A stretch of DNA of 24,965 nt from a virus. Of the stretch, positions 8,115-19,825 are shown in pieces (position 1 is the stretch's first letter; every line of letters begins with the position of its first letter). A program made the translations under genes and the position numbers. The notes beneath the pieces were generated by a model, which had not been told where the DNA came from, made no database searches, and worked only from the letters and a program-made list of their open reading frames with translations. The stretch spans positions 1-24,965 of the IMG/VR virus record IMGVR_UViG_3300011114_000344; one strand, given 5' to 3'.

Positions 8115-9659
8115 TTAATAGTATGCAGCTTGTCTGCCGCGCCTGAATATTCTAGGCTCTTCTTTCTCATCCGACTCCAACGAGATAAACCCACCTTGGC
8201 GGTAGCGTAGTAGCGCTTGTGTGGTGGTGTCCACGTAGTCGTCGTGTTCTCCCACAGGAAACGCTGCCATTTCTTCTATGACTTCCCTAGCCCACCGGGT
8301 GTCTGGAGCCCATACTTTACCCGAAGTGAACAGGTCGGCTACGGCGTTCATCCGCACCATTTTGTCGTTTCCCCGGCTGGGGGTGAACTCTTGCACGGGT
8401 ATGCCCATTGCCCGAAGTTCCTGAATCAGAGGAGAACCTGCGGCTTTCTTCTCCACAATAATGCTATCAGGTTCCCAATCTTTCCAGTGTTTTAGTGCTA
8501 CCGCTTTCAATTCCGGGAAGGCCATCCGGTCTTTAAACGCATCCAGCAGTATGAGTTGGGGGGAGCCGTTTTCTTCGTCGTTGTACCAAATCCCCCATGT
8601 CGTACACGCACTGTAGTCAGCGGTTGTCTTGGTCTCAAAGGCGGTGTCCCACGACTGTATGATGTACTCACATTTGGGCGCATCGTCATGGGGCCAGACC
8701 CGCCAATCCTTACGGGAGACCACTGCCGACATGTCTGAGGTGGGCTGTTGCATGTACTGTGCGTTCCAGTACCGGGGCTCCAAGCTGGCTTTGGTCGTCT
8801 CCAGCAATTCTATGGGCCACTGTTCAGGCCACAAGGCTTTGCCAGAAGGTAGGATGGCGGGTAGCTCCACAATCTCCCACGGCGTGGAATCCGGGTTCTT
8901 GGTCTGGTAGTCAAGCAGCCGCCCGGTCAAGTCCAGTAGTGACCAACGGGTCATTACCACAATAATGGCTCCCCCCGGCATTAGTCGTTGTAGCGGCCCG
9001 GTCTGGAACCATGACCATGCGGTATCAAACGCCAAACGGCTGTTGACCTTTATGTCTTGCTCCGAATGCGGGTCATCAATGACGAATAGGTCAGCGCCGC
9101 GCCCAGCAAGTGCACCGCCAACACCCGCTGCGTAGTATTGGCCCCCGGCTGTAGTTGACCATTTACCGGCGGCTTTTTGGTCACTGGCAACAAGGGTGTG
9201 GGGGAAGATTTCATGGTATTCCTCCGAATCAATCAAGTTACGTACTCGTCTGCCATAGTCTTCGGACAGGGACGCTGTGTGTGTCCCCATGATAATTTTC
9301 TTTTCTGGGTACTTACCTAAAAAATACGCAGGAAACAAGTAAGAGGCAAATTCCGATTTTCCGTGCCGGGGGGCTATGTTAACGATCACCCGTTTCTTGT
9401 TACCCTCAATCACATCCGTAAATATCTTTGCCAGTTTGCGGTGATGGGGGCCAATCTTAAATCCGGGGTACACACCTTGAGCAAACCCCAAGGGGCTGTG
9501 TTTGGCGGCAGTCAGTCTGGCGCGTTGCTCACGAATACTCAGGTCATCAAACAGTTCAATCTTGTCCTGCAATGACATGGATGGCAAAGCGCGTTGCAGC
9601 GCTTCCAGTTCCACTTTACTTAGGCTGGTCAGCGTCTGTAGATTCATTAACTGGGACAT
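8115..9659 (-). CDS. terL: Terminase large subunit (TerL)
   Basis: The 514-aa protein has the two-domain plan of viral packaging motors. The ATPase has a Walker A-like APRHGKSE (about residues 96-103), Walker B LFVIDDP (about 191-197) and a coupling motif nearby in IIVVMTRWS. The RNase H-like nuclease has QSWDTAF (Asp about 338), IIVEKKA (Glu about 403) and GEHDDYVDT (Asp 473/474), the three acidic positions that bind metal. It packages DNA through the portal and cuts concatemers. The start at 9659 overlaps the TerS end by 44 nt; ATG at 9647 (MNLQTL) is an alternative with a similarly weak ribosome site. Portal follows immediately. Confidence 0.95.
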   Translation of the reverse strand: MSQLMNLQTLTSLSKVELEALQRALPSMSLQDKIELFDDLSIREQRARLTAAKHSPLGFAQGVYPGFKIGPHHRKLAKIFTDVIEGNKKRVIVNIAPRHGKSEFASYLFPAYFLGKYPEKKIIMGTHTASLSEDYGRRVRNLIDSEEYHEIFPHTLVASDQKAAGKWSTTAGGQYYAAGVGGALAGRGADLFVIDDPHSEQDIKVNSRLAFDTAWSWFQTGPLQRLMPGGAIIVVMTRWSLLDLTGRLLDYQTKNPDSTPWEIVELPAILPSGKALWPEQWPIELLETTKASLEPRYWNAQYMQQPTSDMSAVVSRKDWRVWPHDDAPKCEYIIQSWDTAFETKTTADYSACTTWGIWYNDEENGSPQLILLDAFKDRMAFPELKAVALKHWKDWEPDSIIVEKKAAGSPLIQELRAMGIPVQEFTPSRGNDKMVRMNAVADLFTSGKVWAPDTRWAREVIEEMAAFPVGEHDDYVDTTTQALLRYRQGGFISLESDEKEEPRIFRRGRQAAYY

Positions 9660-10215
9660 CCACTACGTCAATCACATGCATAAACTTGTTTAGCTTTTCT
9701 TTGATGCGCTGCTCCAGTTCGCTATCGGACATGTCGGTTTTCTTAATCTCCACACGTTCCGTAAATAGCGCTACCTCAGTTACCTTGCCCAACATCTCCA
9801 GCGCTTTGAGTCGGAAGCGGGTGTCGGGGTTTTTGGTTTCTTCAAGTATCTGTGACACGGCGTAGCCGCGCAGTTCTTTGGCCTGTTCTACAAACGCCCA
9901 ATCGTATGCGGTCAACATCCCTACCAGATGGCGCACCGCTTGGGGTGTCTTGACGTTGGTAAGCGCTAACTTAGTATTCTGGGGTGGGCTTCCCGCAGCC
10001 ATTGTGGCAAACGCTGCACGTACCGCCTGCGAGTCCGCAGCCGTTTCAATCTCTTCGTCTGGAATAGCGCCAAGCTGTTTCAACCAATCTGCCGTTTTAA
10101 CTTTGGCGTCGATGATGTCCGCAACCGATTGGTTTGCAATAGGAGTTACCACACTCCCGGCTGGGGTGTTTTCTATTTCGGGGTGGTATTCCCCGTTGAT
10201 GAGGTGGTTAAACAT
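9616..10215 (-). CDS. Terminase small subunit-like protein
   Basis: This 199-aa gene is the first of the leftward head operon, immediately upstream of and overlapping TerL, the usual TerS position. The middle (KTPQAVRHLVGMLTAYDWAF) and RFRLKALEMLGKVTEVALFT segments are helical, the latter a pattern seen in TerS-like proteins, and the C-terminus is acidic and Lys-rich. TerS would recognise the packaging site and stimulate TerL. No convincing ribosome site precedes the ATG at 10215; a good AAGGAG lies about 55 nt upstream at about 10276 but with no start codon close to it in frame. Initiation may therefore be unusual, or the start may be wrong. The assignment is mostly positional. Confidence 0.7.
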   Translation of the reverse strand: MFNHLINGEYHPEIENTPAGSVVTPIANQSVADIIDAKVKTADWLKQLGAIPDEEIETAADSQAVRAAFATMAAGSPPQNTKLALTNVKTPQAVRHLVGMLTAYDWAFVEQAKELRGYAVSQILEETKNPDTRFRLKALEMLGKVTEVALFTERVEIKKTDMSDSELEQRIKEKLNKFMHVIDVVDVPVNESTDADQPK

Positions 10216-10297
10216 AGGCAGTGCGTAATAGTGTACACTTCTTTTTGAGTGGCGGTAGTTTCCGTTGCTTCTCCTTGATAGGCAACCCTATCTTTAC

Positions 10298-10321
10298 CCC
10301 CCCGCACTGGGGGGTTTTTTT
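10298..10321 (+). terminator. Rightward rho-independent terminator without an upstream gene
   Basis: CCCCCC (10298-10303), loop GCACT and GGGGGG (10309-10314) are followed by seven T (10315-10321). The T run lies on the plus strand, so it terminates rightward transcripts; on the opposite strand the hairpin is followed by TAAAG and should work poorly. No plus-strand gene precedes it, so it may end an antisense or small RNA or block rightward transcription across the TerS start. Confidence 0.75.
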
Positions 10322-10330
10322 ATGGGTATT

Positions 10331-10346
10331 TGTCTAACATTAGACA
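10331..10346. promoter_or_regulatory. Palindrome, candidate operator
   Basis: TGTCTAA, two bases (CA), then TTAGACA form a perfect 7-bp inverted repeat. One arm plus following bases (TTAGACAT) recurs at 11995-12002 ahead of the 251-aa gene, in the same orientation. It could bind a dimeric regulator; no protein is assigned. Confidence 0.4.
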
Positions 10347-10376
10347 TAGTATGGGCTGGTTTTTTATAATTTTTGT

Positions 10377-10415
10377 GGGGTAGGGGTTTTTGTTTGGAAG
10401 GGGGGGTGGTGTGGG
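10377..10415 (+). other. G-run tract with quadruplex potential
   Basis: Runs of 4, 4, 7 and 3 G occur on the plus strand with loops of 2, 13 and 6 nt; splitting the 7-G run gives a tighter four-run arrangement. The preceding bases are a T/A-rich stretch (10360-10376). Whether it folds is not testable by eye; strand asymmetry is directly visible. Confidence 0.35.
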
Positions 10416-10465: not shown

Positions 10466-10487
10466 TGTGGATTATGGCTGTGGATTA
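10466..10487 (+). repeat. Two DnaA-box-like direct repeats
   Basis: TGTGGATTA occurs at 10466-10474 and 10479-10487, a 13-bp period. Its complement TAATCCACA differs by one base from the DnaA consensus TTATCCACA. In a non-coding, AT/G-biased region between divergent modules this suggests an origin-like element, but two near-consensus copies can occur by chance. Confidence 0.4.
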
Positions 10488-10546: not shown

Positions 10547-10585
10547 CTGAGATTACTGCATTTCCACGCTCCTGAGATTGCTGCA
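10547..10585 (+). repeat. 14-bp direct repeat upstream of the early promoter
   Basis: CTGAGATTACTGCA (10547-10560) and CTGAGATTGCTGCA (10572-10585) match at 13 of 14 positions, 25 bp apart (start to start). The second copy covers the probable -35 of the promoter at 10578-10605, so the pair is a good candidate for a regulator-binding site. Confidence 0.5.
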
Positions 10586-10605: not shown

Positions 10606-10634
10606 AGAGGCATCGGTTGGGGGTTCTAGCCGAT

Positions 10635-10657
10635 AGAGGGAGAATGGTTCTCCCTCT
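10635..10657. repeat. Palindromic element copy 1 (of 5)
   Basis: This is a dyad with core GGGAGAATGGTTCTCCC, extended on both sides to give 10-bp perfectly complementary arms around TGG. It lies 28 nt upstream of the ATG of the 133-aa gene and about 30 nt after the promoter, so it is transcribed as a stem-loop or acts as a DNA operator. Confidence 0.85.
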
Positions 10658-10685: not shown

Positions 10686-11087
10686 ATGTCAATCAAATCC
10701 GCAGTAATCACATCGTTTATCAGTGCTAACTCAGTGGCTTACGACAAAGCCGCCGTAATCTTCCACAACATGGAGACTACGGGGGAAACATGGGTAACAG
10801 CACTTGCTGCCGCCGGTGTTATCGGGTCAGACGTCAAAGTCTTTGCTACAGTATGGGTAACAAAGGTATCAAATGTGATGCCCCATGACTATCGTGGCAC
10901 ATGGGTATTCACCAAGGACTCAGCAGAGCACAGCAGAGTCAAGTACTTGTGCGCCGTGGCATCTGGTGCGACGACACGCAAGGCCGGTACACGCAAGAGC
11001 GCCAAGGTTGACCCGGTTGACGCAGTGCTCAAGGCATACAAGGCGCTGACCACGGCACAGAAGCGTGCCTTCATTGCGGCTATCTAA
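10686..11087 (+). CDS. Unknown early protein (133 aa)
   Basis: The start is taken at 10686 (MSIKSAVITSFISANSVAYD) because AGGAAAC lies just upstream; the frame is open further left but that part contains the palindromic repeat and is an unlikely coding region. The protein has an Ala/Val-rich N-terminal half, a central segment with GTWVFTKDSAEHSRVKYLCA, and a basic Lys/Arg/Ala-rich linker before a final helix, ALTTAQKRAFIAAI. No known domain is recognised. As first gene of the rightward block with a strong promoter it is probably an early-expressed protein. The basic linker could contact nucleic acid, which is inference. Confidence 0.7.
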   Translation: MSIKSAVITSFISANSVAYDKAAVIFHNMETTGETWVTALAAAGVIGSDVKVFATVWVTKVSNVMPHDYRGTWVFTKDSAEHSRVKYLCAVASGATTRKAGTRKSAKVDPVDAVLKAYKALTTAQKRAFIAAI

Positions 11088-11100
11088 GCTGCTACCAATC

Positions 11101-11123
11101 AGAGGGAGAACTGTTCTCCCTCT
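11101..11123. repeat. Palindromic element copy 2 (of 5)
   Basis: The core GGGAGAACTGTTCTCCC is a perfect 8-bp dyad around a single T; outer bases also pair, giving 10-bp arms. It is 13 nt after the 133-aa gene and 77 nt before the 46-aa gene start. Confidence 0.85.
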
Positions 11124-11200
11124 ACTTTTAGGACTCTCTCACAGCGCATCCGCAAGGGTGTGTTGTGGGGGCAATCTTGCCCTGACTGTAGGAGATATCA

Positions 11201-11341
11201 ATGAACGTAGCACTTGGAATTATTGGCACGGCTTGCGTGGCCGTAGCCTTGGGTCAGCTTGTCCCCGAGGGGATGTGGTTGTGGCTGGCGGTCTTGGGAT
11301 GGGGATGTTGCACCCTGACCTTGGCCTTCGTCTGGGACTGA
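11201..11341 (+). CDS. Small hydrophobic membrane protein (46 aa)
   Basis: The frame reads MNVALGIIGTACVAVALGQL then VPEGMWLWLAVLGWGCCTLT and a short LAFVWD end. It has two hydrophobic stretches separated by a Pro-Glu-Gly turn, so it is likely a two-segment membrane hairpin or a single longer one. TAGGAGA precedes the ATG by 6 nt, which supports translation. A long antisense frame also covers this area, but it lacks a ribosome site and crosses several non-coding features. The gene lies between palindromic copies 2 and 3. The function is unknown. Confidence 0.6.
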   Translation: MNVALGIIGTACVAVALGQLVPEGMWLWLAVLGWGCCTLTLAFVWD

Positions 11342-11348
11342 ACACTCT

Positions 11349-11371
11349 ATAGCCCTGTGACAGGGGGCTAT
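11349..11371 (+). other. Stem-loop after the 46-aa gene
   Basis: ATAGCCC (11349-11355) pairs with GGGCTAT (11365-11371) around a nine-base loop with further partial pairing. It starts 8 nt after the 46-aa stop codon. No T run follows, so it is not a standard terminator; an RNA stability or processing role is possible. Confidence 0.4.
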
Positions 11372-11384
11372 GTAGTGCGCTGTT

Positions 11385-11407
11385 AGAGGGAGAACTGTTC
11401 TCCCCCT
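11385..11407. repeat. Palindromic element copy 3 (of 5)
   Basis: The core GGGAGAACTGTTCTCCC is identical to copy 2, while the right outer arm ends CCCCCT rather than CCCTCT, so one outer base pair is lost. It sits 22 nt before the 76-aa gene start. Confidence 0.85.
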
Positions 11408-11429
11408 GAGTGTCACTGAGGAGTTAATC

Positions 11430-11660
11430 ATGAAAACCACCATCATGGGTGTTACGTACACCATCATCCGCCGCCAACCTTTGCGTAATGACCCATCGTA
11501 CTGGGTCATCCATGCCGTGAGCACAGACGGCAGAACCACGGCGCACAGCAGCACCGAGGCGTTCCTCGGGTGGGCGGAGCGTGAAGGCATGGCCCAACGC
11601 TCCGAACGCCGCCCTATGGGCGTGATGAAGGCCGCACTTTTAAGCGCAGGTTTGCAGTAA
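11430..11660 (+). CDS. Unknown small basic protein (76 aa)
   Basis: The protein starts MKTTIMGVTYTIIRRQPLRN and contains SYWVIHAVSTDGRTTAHSST, followed by a helical, Arg-rich C-terminus (AEREGMAQRSERRPMGVM). GAGGAG lies just upstream of the ATG. The short beta-rich N-terminus and basic helix could fit a small nucleic-acid-binding protein, but no named family is recognised. It is one of the genes carrying the 17-bp palindrome in its leader. Confidence 0.7.
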   Translation: MKTTIMGVTYTIIRRQPLRNDPSYWVIHAVSTDGRTTAHSSTEAFLGWAEREGMAQRSERRPMGVMKAALLSAGLQ

Positions 11661-11672
11661 TCTCGCCCGAGG

Positions 11673-11739
11673 GGGGTGGCCCACCTTTTTCCTGCAATGT
11701 CCAAGACTAATGGGCGCTGTACAGGAAGTGGGCTACCCC
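11673..11739. repeat. Long GC-rich stem-loop
   Basis: GGGGTGGCCCAC (11673-11684) pairs with GTGGGCTACCCC (11728-11739) over 12 positions with one G-T pair. Inside it TTCCTG and CAGGAA can extend the pairing. There is no T run after it, so it is not a simple terminator. Confidence 0.65.
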
Positions 11740-11994
11740 TAAGTTGTTGTTCTATAAGCGTTTCCAACAGGTGGTGTCCTATATATATAATTAAATAGAT
11801 TTACTTTATATATACAGCAATCTCCTTTTATCCATTCGTTCTTTCTTTTGCGTTTGGTTTAATAGAAGATTACAAGGGCTTTAGTTTATTTTAAAATCAT
11901 GCTACACTTGGGACAGTAACCACGCGAACCCTTGTGCCACAAGGGTTTGAGGGTAGCCCACCTCCTGTCCTAGCACCTTTAGTCTGGGACATCG
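11695..11994. repeat. Imperfect 44-bp inverted repeat flanking an AT-rich core
   Basis: The reverse complement of 11695-11738 and the direct sequence 11951-11994 align without gaps at 34 of 44 positions by my count. Both share GGGTAGCCCAC, CCTGT, TTAGTCT and GGACAT blocks. The arms enclose 212 bp of mostly AT-rich DNA. Terminal inverted repeats around a short non-coding core are seen in miniature elements, and also in origins; no target duplication was found at the outer ends. Confidence 0.55.
11886..11908 (+). promoter_or_regulatory. Possible extended -10 promoter
   Basis: TACACT at 11903-11908 has TG one base upstream (11900-11901), the extended -10 form. An upstream -35 is poor. It would transcribe rightward into the 251-aa gene through palindrome copy 4. 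Confidence 0.35.
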
Positions 11995-12030
11995 TTAGAC
12001 ATTTACTGGGCCACCCCCCACCCAAAAAGC

Positions 12031-12053
12031 AGCGGGAGAACGGTTCTCCCCCT
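12031..12053. repeat. Palindromic element copy 4 (of 5)
   Basis: The core GGGAGAACGGTTCTCCC is intact while the outer left base differs (AGC for AGA). It lies 14 nt before the ATG of the 251-aa gene and ends just ahead of its AAGGAG ribosome site. Confidence 0.85.
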
Positions 12054-12067
12054 AAAAAGGAGCCGAA

Positions 12068-12823
12068 ATGGTTGAATCTTACGCAGCGCTAACACCAAAA
12101 GCGTTAGCAAACCACCTTGCCAAGCGCAAGGTTCCGCTTGTTATGGTGCAAGCCATACAAGAGCGTGCTGCCCAACAGCGTGCGTTCAAGCGCTCCGACA
12201 CGGGCACTAGGCGAACGCATAAGGAATTGTGGGGCAATCTGCTGTTCCCCCTGCGTTATGAGCGCAACAATGTGAAGGCTGGCATCAAGTATGCCGGTGG
12301 TGACGCACGGGGTGAAGCAATGCACAGTTATCTCATTGTGCTGGAGGAACTGCTCTACCGGCTGAACATGCACGCCACAGCCCGTATCCTGACCCCACGC
12401 CAACTGTGCAAGGAACGCAACGAGTCGGGCCGAGGCGCACACATACCCAATGCAGGAACCCATTGGTCGGATTGGGTTCCGCAGCACATCAAACTGAGGG
12501 TGTGTGTCCTGTTCGACGCCATACCCTATAAACAGCGTGCGAAACGCAAGCTACCTTTCCAGCGTGCCATACCCCCGCCGCTGTACAGCAGGCTGTACGT
12601 AGCCCTTGGCTTGCGTACGCAGGGGTTCCTGAGCGCAGCACAGCGCAAGCATGCCGTTGCGCCCACTGAGGAGACAGCCGCTACTGTTGCAGCCATACAA
12701 CACGCGCTGGTGGTCTTGCAAGAGTGGCCCCGCAACACAGCCCTGCCCTACGCATGGCAGAGCCTTGCGGCAACCAGTATCAAACAGAGGGAGAACGGTT
12801 CTCCCCCTAACCTAGGAGAGTGA
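12068..12823 (+). CDS. Unknown basic protein (251 aa)
   Basis: This 251-aa product starts MVESYAALTPKALANHLAKR and is rich in Arg, Lys, Ala and His. It contains aromatic- and Arg-rich stretches (LLFPLRYERNNVKAGIKYAG) and a mid-region with Trp and Cys (WSDWVPQHIKLRVCVLFDAI). AAAAGGAG precedes the ATG. No enzymatic motif is recognised, and it could be a nucleic-acid-binding protein by charge. Its last 13 codons carry palindrome copy 5 (KQRENGSPPNLGE), so the protein end and the regulatory element overlap; the true protein domain may end before that. It lies in the palindrome-marked block upstream of the amidoligase. Confidence 0.75.
   Translation: MVESYAALTPKALANHLAKRKVPLVMVQAIQERAAQQRAFKRSDTGTRRTHKELWGNLLFPLRYERNNVKAGIKYAGGDARGEAMHSYLIVLEELLYRLNMHATARILTPRQLCKERNESGRGAHIPNAGTHWSDWVPQHIKLRVCVLFDAIPYKQRAKRKLPFQRAIPPPLYSRLYVALGLRTQGFLSAAQRKHAVAPTEETAATVAAIQHALVVLQEWPRNTALPYAWQSLAATSIKQRENGSPPNLGE
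12786..12808. repeat. Palindromic element copy 5 (of 5)
   Basis: The core GGGAGAACGGTTCTCCC lies within the last codons of the 251-aa gene and 16 nt before the ATG of the 68-aa gene. Its retention inside coding sequence supports selection on DNA or RNA rather than on protein. Confidence 0.85.
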
Positions 12824-13082: not shown

Positions 13083-14711
13083 ATGAAAATCTACATTAGT
13101 GATTGTGGGATTGTGCTCAAGGCACAGATCGTGGACAGCATTACGTACGTGCAGGTCACGGGTACGCTGGACGAGGGGTACACATGGCTGCGTTGGAGAG
13201 CGGACACCGTACCGTTCTCCACCCCGGCGTTCACACCAGAGCAGACCGGCCTGCTGAAGACACTCAGCCCCGAGGTGTACGGGCAGTTGCTCAACAACAT
13301 GGTGGAGCCGCTCTCGTTGGCAGCATCACGGCGCATGCGTGCGCTGTACCGCCGTTGGGGTCAGAGAGAAAACACCTCCCGTCCAGTGGCACATTGCCGG
13401 GGGGCCACCTTTTTCTTTGACACCTACGGTGTCGCCCGGTTCAAGGCAATGAAGGAGATGTGTCGTGACCTCAACGTGCATGTCAAAGCGGCCATCCAAG
13501 GTGACGAGGATGCGCTAGTCGAGTTCATCGTGGAGAACGATGGGAGCGACCTGATCGAACGGGTGTTCCCCAAGATAAGCCATCTCGTTGACGAGTGCTT
13601 GGCTTTGGCAGACTGCGGCCACATCACCCGGCCCGATGACATGACAGATGTGCACCGCACCTCAAGGAACTCCAGCACCATGTGCTTGGACTGCCGCAGC
13701 AATCAGGCGGTGTACTGCGAGGACGCAGAGGAGTACTACTTAGAGTCTCGTGCCTACCTCCACAGCGATGACAATTGGTATACGTACGAAGAAGAGCGGG
13801 AGGAGGAGGAGGAGGAGGAGGAAGAGGAGGAGGAGGAGTGTGACCACAACGGGCACTCCATGAGCTACTCGGCATGCGTCTTGAAGTATGCCTCGGCAGA
13901 TGCCAGCATCCACAGTTCCAAGTACGGGGACTTCACGCTAGGCATTGAGTTGGAGATGGCCCCGGGGCGTGCGTCTAGGTACGATGCCATTGAGGATGTG
14001 CGGAACCAGCTTGGGCATGACTACTGCATCATCAAGGACGATGGCAGCATCAGCGGGGTCAATGGCTTTGAGGTAGTGACAGCCCCCCGTGGTCTGAAGG
14101 AGCACATCACACGCTTCAAGGCATGGGATGTCAACAAGGCTTATCGTGCTTGGGATGTGGAGAAGTGCGGCACGCATGTGCACATCGACTCCCGTGCCTT
14201 CACTGAGTTGACCCTTGGCAAGTTCCTCATGTTCATCAACTCCAACAACAACGCCGACTTCATCCGCAATATAGCAGGCAGGCATCCGCTCAAGGACAGC
14301 CAAGCGAGGGAGTACTGTGCCAATGAGGAGCAGGGCATCTTGGACAACCCCAAGCAGGCCATCCTCGGCAAGACGGCACAGCGCTACTACATGGTGAACC
14401 TGAACAACTTGGCGTATGACGAGTCACGGCGCTTAGGGTTCAAGAGTACGTACACAGAGGGCAAGTACAACACGATAGAGCTACGCATCTTCCGGGCCAC
14501 ACTCAAGAAGGAGCGCTTGCTTGCACAGATAGAGTTCACCCATGCCAGTGTGCACTTCTGTCGCAATGCGAGTTTCCGCGAACTCAACGGCACAGAGTTC
14601 GTGGCATGGCTCAAGACTACCAACAACGCATACCCACACCTGTCCGATTGGTACGGCACACGCCGCCCCAAGCAGGTTCCCCAGTCCCCTGCACTCGCAA
14701 CAACTGAATAA
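13083..14711 (+). CDS. Amidoligase (ATP-dependent COOH-NH2 ligase family)
   Basis: The 542-aa protein has three parts. Residues 1-180 are unrecognised. Residues about 185-255 contain a Cys/His-rich patch (DCGH, CLDC, YCED, then CDHNGH) and a run of 13 Glu (240-252). Residues about 280-500 show the amidoligase_2 (PF12224-type) signature in order: GIELEM (G287, E289, E291), KDDGS (319-322) with FEVVTAP (E330), CGTHVHID (C362, H365, H367), and IELRIFR (E466, R468, R471). This family, related to glutamate-cysteine ligase and glutamine synthetase, uses ATP to join a carboxylate to an amine. The next gene is a class II amidotransferase, 11 nt away, which could supply ammonia. The substrate is unknown. 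CAAGGAAAC precedes the ATG. Confidence 0.82.
   Translation: MKIYISDCGIVLKAQIVDSITYVQVTGTLDEGYTWLRWRADTVPFSTPAFTPEQTGLLKTLSPEVYGQLLNNMVEPLSLAASRRMRALYRRWGQRENTSRPVAHCRGATFFFDTYGVARFKAMKEMCRDLNVHVKAAIQGDEDALVEFIVENDGSDLIERVFPKISHLVDECLALADCGHITRPDDMTDVHRTSRNSSTMCLDCRSNQAVYCEDAEEYYLESRAYLHSDDNWYTYEEEREEEEEEEEEEEEECDHNGHSMSYSACVLKYASADASIHSSKYGDFTLGIELEMAPGRASRYDAIEDVRNQLGHDYCIIKDDGSISGVNGFEVVTAPRGLKEHITRFKAWDVNKAYRAWDVEKCGTHVHIDSRAFTELTLGKFLMFINSNNNADFIRNIAGRHPLKDSQAREYCANEEQGILDNPKQAILGKTAQRYYMVNLNNLAYDESRRLGFKSTYTEGKYNTIELRIFRATLKKERLLAQIEFTHASVHFCRNASFRELNGTEFVAWLKTTNNAYPHLSDWYGTRRPKQVPQSPALATTE
13788..13838 (+). repeat. GAG triplet run encoding poly-Glu
   Basis: The stretch codes EEER then 13 Glu in a row, almost all GAG codons. 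Triplet runs of this type can expand or contract by slippage, so tract length may vary between relatives. It separates the Cys-rich patch from the catalytic domain as an acidic linker. Confidence 0.85.
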
Positions 14712-14722
14712 GGATATCAATC

Positions 14723-15763
14723 ATGTGCCTCATCATCACTGGCAAGTCTGCCAAGATTCGCAACACCCTGCTCAACACAGCCGGGTTACTCGACACCATC
14801 TACACATCCAACCCTGACGGGATTGGGCTGATGTACAGCACCGCCAAGGGGCTCAAGACCGTCAAGGTGTTGCCCAAGTCGGCGGCAGATGCACGCGCCA
14901 TCATCAACAAGATACCCAAGGATGCCCGTGAGATGGCGATCCACTTCCGCTGGGCGACACATGGCAAGACAGACTTGCATAACTGTCACCCGTACGATGT
15001 CATCCCGGGCTACGTTGCCATGATGCACAACGGCGTGCTGCACACAGGCAATGAGGCTGACAAGGACAAGTCCGACACATGGCACTTCATCAAGGACTAC
15101 CTGTCAGAGTCGGTGCACATGGCCCCGGAACTGGTGTTCGTTGAGGGGTTCCTTGCCATGATCGCTGAGTTCATCGGGGACAATCGGTTTGTGTTTATGA
15201 ATGGCGAGGGGCGCATCAGCCATGTCAACAAGGACTCAGGCATCGAGCACGATGGCATGTGGTTCAGCAACACCTACGCATGGAACCCAGCGCTGCTGAT
15301 ACCCACGTACCGATCACGCCATACATCCTCACGCTACCTCGGGTCATGGAACAACACAGAGACAGACGAGGAAGACTATGGGTATTACAGCCGCAGCTTT
15401 AACGGGCACAAGCCCCTCTCCGTAGCGCCATCGAAGCCGCTTGTCACTGTGGATGAGATCACCACGCACCTCGATGCATACGATGCGCCGGGTCTGTGCT
15501 ACTTGCTAGAGGCGTTCCCCAGCACGACCGTGCACCTGCTGTGCAAGAACTTCATCCCAAGCCCCACCTCTGTGGCGTACCGGGACGAGATCAGCGCACA
15601 CGAGACGGCTGTGTATGACATGCTGCTGGAGCAGGACATGACGGGGTTGCTGACGTACCTGACGCACTCCACCTCCTCCGCTGCCACAGTGGCGGATGTA
15701 ATCTGTTACTACCTGAACTGGGAGCGATGCGTGAGCACCCGGCCCAGCGTAGCAGCAGCCTGA
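14723..15763 (+). CDS. Class II glutamine amidotransferase (Ntn hydrolase)
   Basis: This 346-aa protein starts MCLIITGKS, so after Met removal Cys2 would be the N-terminal nucleophile typical of GATase class II. Further motifs follow in order: NPDGIGLMY (about residues 30-40), HFRWATHGKTDLHNCHPY (about 74-91), AMMHNGVLH (about 99-107) and SDTWHF (about 117-122), all expected for glutamine binding and hydrolysis to glutamate and ammonia. The C-terminal 140 residues are not recognised. It directly follows the amidoligase, with AAGGA upstream of the ATG, and is likely a functional partner. It lacks synthetase domains, so the ammonia would be used by another protein. A hairpin follows the stop. 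Confidence 0.88.
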   Translation: MCLIITGKSAKIRNTLLNTAGLLDTIYTSNPDGIGLMYSTAKGLKTVKVLPKSAADARAIINKIPKDAREMAIHFRWATHGKTDLHNCHPYDVIPGYVAMMHNGVLHTGNEADKDKSDTWHFIKDYLSESVHMAPELVFVEGFLAMIAEFIGDNRFVFMNGEGRISHVNKDSGIEHDGMWFSNTYAWNPALLIPTYRSRHTSSRYLGSWNNTETDEEDYGYYSRSFNGHKPLSVAPSKPLVTVDEITTHLDAYDAPGLCYLLEAFPSTTVHLLCKNFIPSPTSVAYRDEISAHETAVYDMLLEQDMTGLLTYLTHSTSSAATVADVICYYLNWERCVSTRPSVAAA

Positions 15764-19475: not shown

Positions 19476-19825
19476 CAGGCTTTAACTCAAAACGCGAAGC
19501 ATCTCATCAAAAATTAAATTACGAAGTTGTTGGTGATGAGGTAGTCAAGGTTGGTAATTTAGATGAGCCTATATTTAAATATAGAGAAGATACCTATAAA
19601 GTCCCTAGATGTTTTAATTCTGTTGTTCAATGGAGAGATTGGCAAAAAGCAGCTAGGGCTTCAAATCCCGGTAGTAGCGGTTACTGCACAGACTGCACGT
19701 TTAAATACAAAAACCAAATGGTAAAAGAAAACCGTTGCAACTTTCCAACAGTTAAGTTTAAACTTACTGAAGATGGAGGCGTTGAAGGAGTTAGAGAAAA
19801 ACTATGGTTTGAAAAAAACACATGA
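19472..19825 (+). CDS. AT-rich unknown protein with Cys motif (117 aa)
   Basis: The 117-aa protein begins MTGFNSKREASHQKLNYEVV and has strands (VGDEVVKVGNLDEPIFKYRE) and a Cys cluster CTDCTFKYKNQMVKENRC, reminiscent of a small zinc site. Its codons are visibly AT-richer than its neighbours (AAA, TTT, GAT, ATT, AGA frequent), suggesting recent acquisition. It starts 4 nt inside the previous gene and ends with ATGA coupling to the next. No named family is recognised. Confidence 0.7.
   Translation: MTGFNSKREASHQKLNYEVVGDEVVKVGNLDEPIFKYREDTYKVPRCFNSVVQWRDWQKAARASNPGSSGYCTDCTFKYKNQMVKENRCNFPTVKFKLTEDGGVEGVREKLWFEKNT

Follow-up and report, generated by a model that had tools for sequence, protein, structure and literature searches.

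A candidate replication origin and its neighbouring protein family in a group of uncultivated tailed phages

Introduction

Replication origins have seldom been identified in uncultured phages. Among the described origins, oriV of RSF1010 and the IncQ plasmids carries ssiA and ssiB, two opposed hairpin units that adjoin an AT-rich region.

In archaea, replicators and initiators form pairs in which origin recognition boxes are combined with cdc6 or whiP genes, and the layout of these origins, as far as it is outlined in PMC4010727, is similar to that of the phage element described here. In herpes simplex oriS, inversely oriented protein boxes have an AT-rich spacer between them, and in this arrangement of inverted boxes flanking AT-rich DNA it is again like the phage element (as outlined in part of PMC12543377). 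The phage world offers an iteron origin in the ICP1 satellite PLE, which possesses repeats and a dedicated RepA-type initiator (as sketched in part of PMC7145576). However, the phage element differs from each of these. Its host virus is a bacterial phage, and no homologue of Orc1/Cdc6 or WhiP was found beside it, Pfam and PDB sequence searches with the neighbouring protein family having returned no such homology. The box-binding protein of oriS, in the same partial account, is an SF2 helicase, its boxes are short and the virus is unrelated, so that the two are comparable only in how they would work. Unlike iteron origins of the PLE type, as far as that source outlines them, the phage element lacks an internal direct-repeat family (in the window, none has two copies inside 11671-12019, as would be expected of iterons), and the protein that the window encodes next to it has no RepA_N match. 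Searches of the open PMC literature, judged by titles and the beginnings of abstracts, brought up no description of this element or this protein.

Genomic Context

The whole stretch of DNA analysed here, hereafter the window, is a single 24,965-base record of an uncultivated phage. Leftward structural genes extend to 10215 and rightward early genes start at 10686. Recognisable proteins are a terminase, an amidoligase, a DUF932 protein and a family-A DNA polymerase, together with an SNF2 helicase and nucleases in the window or in its relative G001; a DUF927 primase-helicase is encoded in G001 and in seven of nine further records. Named phages carry terminase relatives of up to about 50% identity. 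The element is flanked by a 76-aa gene at 11430-11660 and a 251-aa gene at 12068-12823 (plus strand), and no plausible gene of at least 60 aa was found in 11660-12068, the sole listed open reading frame that enters this interval being 11198-11767 on the minus strand, which has a TTG start and overlaps plus-strand early genes. A weak match points to a small-terminase-like gene at 9616-10215, outside the element, and no partition or integrase family was found among the proteins scanned. Further to the right, 13083-14711 encodes an amidoligase-like protein with a long glutamate run, after which a possible class-II glutamine amidotransferase gene, below the Pfam cut-off, is located at 14723.

Architecture of the Element

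A preliminary description of this DNA had reported a non-coding AT-rich core with imperfect inverted flanks matching at 34 of 44 positions in opposite orientation. The core and its flanks are confirmed, and the match is exact as reported, ungapped, with 11695 set against 11951. When gaps are allowed, the arms extend to 11671-11762 on the left and 11927-12019 on the right (plus-strand coordinates), with 66 of 91 aligned positions matching and a score of 33.5, compared with a mean of 9.0, a standard deviation of 1.8 and a maximum of 23.0 when the same geometry was placed at 1184 other positions in the window. The left arm, whose outward reading is on the minus strand, is strongest at 11671-11740, and the right arm, which opens with a perfect hairpin at 11927-11949, is strongest at 11951-12019; the outermost bases, 11671-11683, have a perfect 13-bp inverted match to 12007-12019. 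A third partial copy of the repeat had been proposed at 11673, and this sequence does pair within its own arm as described, but it corresponds to the left arm's outer end and not to a separate copy. Between the arms lies the AT-rich core (11763-11926), a candidate unwinding element, of which the best 120 bp, from 11781, are 76.7% AT and the most AT-rich of the window, the next being 70% at 19512.

As single-stranded DNA, 11660-12025 folds with -69.8 kcal/mol, compared with an average of -37.2 kcal/mol for shuffled sequences (z -8.1; none of 100 shuffles equalled it), and the local DNA folds of the left and right arms reach -18.1 and -9.7 kcal/mol. In the window the arms fold with z-scores of -3.3 and -2.9, and in forming hairpins they resemble the opposed units of RSF1010/IncQ oriV; however, hairpin arms are a property of the window and a minority of other elements and not of the family. 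Over 39 elements single arms showed no unusual folding (median z -1.0 for left and -0.2 for right arms), and hairpin priming sites were rejected as a family feature since z was below -2 in only 8 left and 5 right of the 39 arms, the window included. A variable core hairpin was rejected likewise, perfect stems of at least 6 occurring in 9 of 39 elements and in 18 of 195 simple shuffles.

Conservation in Close Relatives

The protein of the 12068 gene is encoded at 94-96% identity in six further IMG/VR contigs, and a seventh contig, in which the element runs into the contig end, was found by a pattern search with the core. In the six contigs, 11650-12025 is retained as 376 bp without gaps and with 92-94% match. 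Over five aligned sequences, 71 of 76 columns are invariant in the left arm (11668-11743), 130 of 147 in the core (11744-11890) and 62 of 71 in the right arm (11950-12020), and the right end of the core (11891-11927) is less conserved, with 22 of 37. The left arm and the core are thus more conserved than the third codon positions of the 12068 gene, of which 172 of 240 are invariant. No second copy of the element was found in the window or in the six other records searched, each having a single one, and no empty site was found in the relatives, in the close ones of which place and length are constant. Since the element is gap-free and conserved in close relatives, a young mobile insert is excluded.

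The five long relatives measure 60.1, 62.8, 62.8, 60.6 and 60.5 kb, and in all five the core has the lowest duplex stability of any 100 bp in the contig (z 4.6-5.1, compared with 3.6-4.1 for the next site); in G001 and G003 it is the most AT-rich 120 bp as well. G001 (L105, L117) has a 127-bp direct terminal repeat and has therefore probably been assembled as a closed circle of about 59,964 bp. Only in G001 and G003 is the position of the GC-skew minimum independent of where the count is started; it falls to the left of the core there, by 2006 bp in G001 and by 2130 bp in G003, at the divergent gene border where the gene strand also switches, and the detrended minimum lies 10.8 kb left of the core in G007, 12.3 kb left in G008 and 2.3 kb right in G009. 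The DnaA box TTATNCACA was not found in the window, G001 or G002, and occurs once in G003 and once in the 40 kb of G004 that were read, each time far from the element. Two TGTGGATTA boxes form a direct repeat at 10466 and 10479 in the divergent intergenic region; they are absent from G001-G003, and G004 has two such boxes elsewhere. A DnaA-dependent origin was rejected, there being no TTATNCACA boxes near the element and no TGTGGATTA pair in G001-G003.

Linkage to a Protein Family in Distant Relatives

More distant phages were collected through the terminase, from which the best 80 of 600 matched stretches (79-98% terminase identity) were taken; of these, the analysis covered the 40 that extend about 2.9 kb or more upstream. 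Measured from the terminase start, the 120 bp richest in AT within the fetched upstream DNA are located at 1847-2860 bp in 29 of the 40 (2121 bp in the window) and at other distances in the remaining 11, ten of them having this peak at about 510-770 bp. Many of these relatives have long inverted arms of different sequence around the AT-rich block, and 30 of the 40 exceed an inverted-repeat threshold of 14.8 at an AT peak between 1.4 and 3.2 kb. Ten remain below this threshold around the AT peak, at least one of them (L081) through mis-centring, as the same contig passes under the name L177 in the gene-based set described below. A relative of the 12068 protein was found by tblastn in 26 of the 40 and as a strong profile hit in 27; ten of the remaining 13 encode a protein with an N-terminal CxxC...CxxC motif, and L041, L065 and L094 keep the AT-rich core and inverted arms but have another downstream gene.

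A search with the alignment of the 12068 family provided the gene-based set, with 80 listed loci of 255 candidates. Seventy-six of the listed loci were tested, leaving out two loci from window-group contigs (L121 and L125) and two loci with short upstream DNA (L176 and L181). All 76 have inverted arms around an AT-rich core within 450 bp upstream of the 12068 relative, which thus lies directly downstream of the element each time, with scores above the 99th percentile of the controls (median 39.6; 304 controls, 99th percentile 14.8, maximum 17.5). Scores exceed the control maximum in 73 of them, and the near-identical L162-L164 score 16.5. In 70 of the 76 no part of the fetched locus, which measures up to about 4.7 kb, is richer in AT than the core, and throughout the set 253-305 bp separate the start of the 100-bp AT peak from the protein match downstream. 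Many of these loci are near-identical, and 39 non-redundant elements, including that of the window, were used for the consensus, for the fold tests given above and for the mismatch counts given below.

While the layout is constant, the sequence of the arms differs between lineages. The consensus contains an outward motif around TATCTATCTATCTTTTT...TATATATATA, with CATGCGG as its end. Counted over 72 of the 76 loci, four window-group loci being left out, the outward motif (C/T)(T/C)AG(C/T)(A/G)TNCATGCGG, with two mismatches allowed, is present in 54 left arms, 62 right arms and both arms of 48 loci, and copies facing inward number none on the left and two on the right. L035 bridges these loci to the window, the outward left arms of the two aligning over most of their length with a score of 33.8 against a background maximum of 15.0.

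The Neighbouring Protein

The 251-aa product of 12068-12823 is a candidate initiator or regulator acting on the element. The window protein has no match in Pfam (RepA_N included), PHROG or PDB, and the aligned family members outside the window group are 23-42% identical to it. It was predicted by AlphaFold2 to be all-helical (mean pLDDT 83), and the form with the CxxC...CxxC zinc ribbon was predicted with a small head containing strands and a similar order of helices (pLDDT 85). The two forms are homologous by profile comparison (97.5% probability, E 6e-12), and the zinc ribbon beside a helical domain, as modelled, would fit a DNA-binding protein, though it is no proof of one. The zinc-ribbon form was observed in more distant phages, at L022, L027, L042, L043, L044, L049, L026, L045, L086 and L052.

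Structure searches gave no confident PDB fold for either model, the best Foldseek E-values against the PDB being 1.3 and 2.8 and the best VIA-align Z 6.8, which is within the common range for helical models. In a viral structure library only two unnamed proteins of uncultured phages matched at E below 0.001, and at the same level the zinc-ribbon profile matched only designed helical proteins. Pfam and PHROG scans of the alignment members yielded scattered weak hits, and weak endonuclease VII/HNH hits were given by two of the scanned zinc-ribbon forms, the L026 and L094 proteins. No relatives were found in 50,697 phage records for the four family members tried or in 72,556 plasmid records for one member, and a scan of genome contigs gave seven pattern matches, none of which is a relative.

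Change of the Two Arms

The two arms of one element are more alike than the arms of other elements, the self score being higher than every cross score for 10 of 11 representatives (all but L129), and the rank test of self against cross gives p 2e-5 for right-right and 0.0099 for left-left comparisons, which are not independent of one another. Changes were followed in 30 disjoint close pairs alongside these 11 representatives. Among 328 left and 388 right changes in the 30 pairs, 84 paired columns are doubly changed and 25 of these are mirrored, most changes thus being one-sided, as they also are in a test on small groups. If changes fell at random, 49.2 doubly changed and 9.3 mirrored columns (sd 3.0) would be expected, and with the doubly changed columns held fixed 16.2 mirrored ones (sd 3.2, P 0.0025). 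The mirrored excess is due in part to a shared variability of the arms and in modest part to true mirroring.

Rfam gave no match in the window at the gathering score, and for the element itself even E-values up to 5 brought none. In the window group no double compensatory change was seen at the 162 predicted pairs of five sequences. There is also no strand-specific preference for G-U pairs, as, with composition taken into account, GT mismatches (167 against 131 expected, 1.27-fold) and AC mismatches (329 against 275, 1.20-fold) are raised alike, and hence no sign of pairing in an RNA of one strand. We infer that the arms are constrained at the DNA level, as two copies of a binding site whose similarity would be maintained either through conversion or through a protein that itself changes.

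A Putative Origin and Its Alternatives

We consider it moderately probable that 11671-12019 is the replication origin of this phage, accompanied by its own candidate initiator. Two features familiar from origins are present, an easily melted AT-rich element and, in both arms of 48 of the 72 loci, an outward candidate protein-binding motif. The preliminary description had spoken of a second origin-like element; it is origin-like in its layout, melting rank, conserved position and linkage to a gene family, and no evidence was found for calling it second. The origin reading also draws on the closer resemblance of the two arms within an element, the modest excess of mirrored arm changes, the conservation of the left arm and core, and the replication genes of the phage group (family-A DNA polymerase, SNF2-type helicase and, in relatives, the DUF927 primase-helicase). 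On the other side, the GC skew lends it no clear support, L041, L065 and L094 have another gene downstream, 10 of the 40 terminase relatives stay below the inverted-repeat threshold, the AT maximum of 11 of the 40 lies elsewhere, and most arm changes are one-sided. In the mechanism that we propose, two outward-facing copies of one set of DNA motifs would flank an easily melted AT-rich core, and the 12068 product, possibly together with the DUF927 primase-helicase, would bind both arms. The bound protein would then open the core and the DUF927 primase-helicase would be loaded for two forks, such that replication would start here and proceed bidirectionally. The initiator role of the 12068 protein is a guess from its position, neither protein model having a confident PDB fold match.

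Chief among the alternatives is a transcription control region of the early operon that is autoregulated: the 12068 protein, which would regulate its own gene, or some other early regulator would use the arms as operators, and the core would be promoter and UP-element DNA; we regard this as rather unlikely, yet as deserving serious attention. The element is directly upstream of the 12068 gene and has operator-like 12-mers in common with the early promoter region. A weak sigma-70-like site (9 of 12; three such sites against 1.8 expected in the scanned region) is located at 11869-11897, and TACACT/TATACT at about 11903-11908. However, such a control region leaves the symmetry of the element unexplained, since transcription from a leftward promoter would be antisense to the early genes of the plus strand; the -10-like letters of the right arm vary among relatives whereas CATGCGG is kept, and a promoter would not need the lowest stability over 100 bp of a whole contig, as the core has in five of five relatives. 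The roles of origin and control region may coexist, and we would guess from the operator-like 12-mers in the early promoter region, at the left edge and in the core that the 12068 protein or another early protein couples the firing of the origin to early transcription.

The remaining readings are far less probable. A site for packaging, partition or recombination is very unlikely: in its favour, the distance of about 2 kb from the terminase genes is roughly conserved, but the small-terminase-like gene lies outside the element and the scanned proteins include no partition or integrase family. Slightly less likely still is a structured RNA or RNA leader in which the arms pair in the transcript; the strong fold z-score of the window and the modest excess of mirrored changes speak for it, and the missing Rfam match, the compensatory and G-U results and the ordinary folding of single arms speak against it. 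The miniature mobile element of the preliminary description has practically no chance of being correct. It is true that the arms (11671-11762 and 11927-12019) are terminal inverted repeats around an AT-rich non-coding core, as expected of a miniature inverted-repeat transposable element; however, there is a single copy at a fixed place, with no gaps in close relatives and no empty site, more conserved than the third codon positions of the next gene and upstream of the same gene family in all 76 tested loci. Synteny without length variation, which that description had set against its own proposals, counts here against mobility and not against an origin.

The element is strongly conserved and, for an origin, familiar in layout, and what is new is the protein and the manner in which the arms change. 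We tentatively advance, as a possibility of somewhat under even weight, that this is a replicator-initiator system new for tailed phages, in which a family of all-helical proteins, some of them bearing an N-terminal zinc ribbon, recognises two outward boxes around an AT-rich core, the arms of each origin staying alike while the boxes drift between lineages to give matched origin-initiator pairs. If the 12068 protein is an initiator, it would stand for a family of initiators not recognised so far, whose many cognate sites have diverged and can be tested, and the joint change of origins and initiators would become a question for the bench.

Short Motifs and Palindromes Near the Element

The operator-like 12-mer GAGATTACTGCA is found on the minus strand at 11653-11664, the left outer edge of the element, where relatives also have it, and with one mismatch at 11813-11824 (minus strand) inside the core; two direct plus-strand copies lie within 10549-10585 (at 10549 and 10574), upstream of the early genes and outside the element. 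One arm had been said to carry a sequence also present in a palindrome at 10331, and indeed TTAGACAT occurs at 11995-12002 (plus strand) in the right arm and at 10340, within the 14-bp palindrome at 10332-10345. This palindrome region is part of a non-coding stretch upstream of the structural operon (10229-10390) that matches many distant terminase relatives at about 70%. It contains a plus-strand terminator-like hairpin and the palindrome GTCTAACATTAGAC, which overlaps with an 11-of-12 sigma-70-like site; an anti-hemB-like Rfam hit in it is below threshold (24.4 bits against a gathering score of 49.5).

Immediately to the right of the element, a palindromic gene-spacer repeat with a GGGAGAACNGTTCTCCC core (12023-12054, plus strand) is one of five and does not belong to the element, being absent in L007. 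The five near-identical palindromes with this core are located in early-gene spacers at 10634-10657, 11101-11123, 11385-11407, 12029-12051 and 12786-12808, and L035 has five copies of a different palindrome, of the GGGGGAACNGTTCCCCC type. In L055 and L073 a palindrome around GATTATTGACGTCAATAATC is found just left of the element, built from the half GATTATTGA that ends both arms in several relatives.
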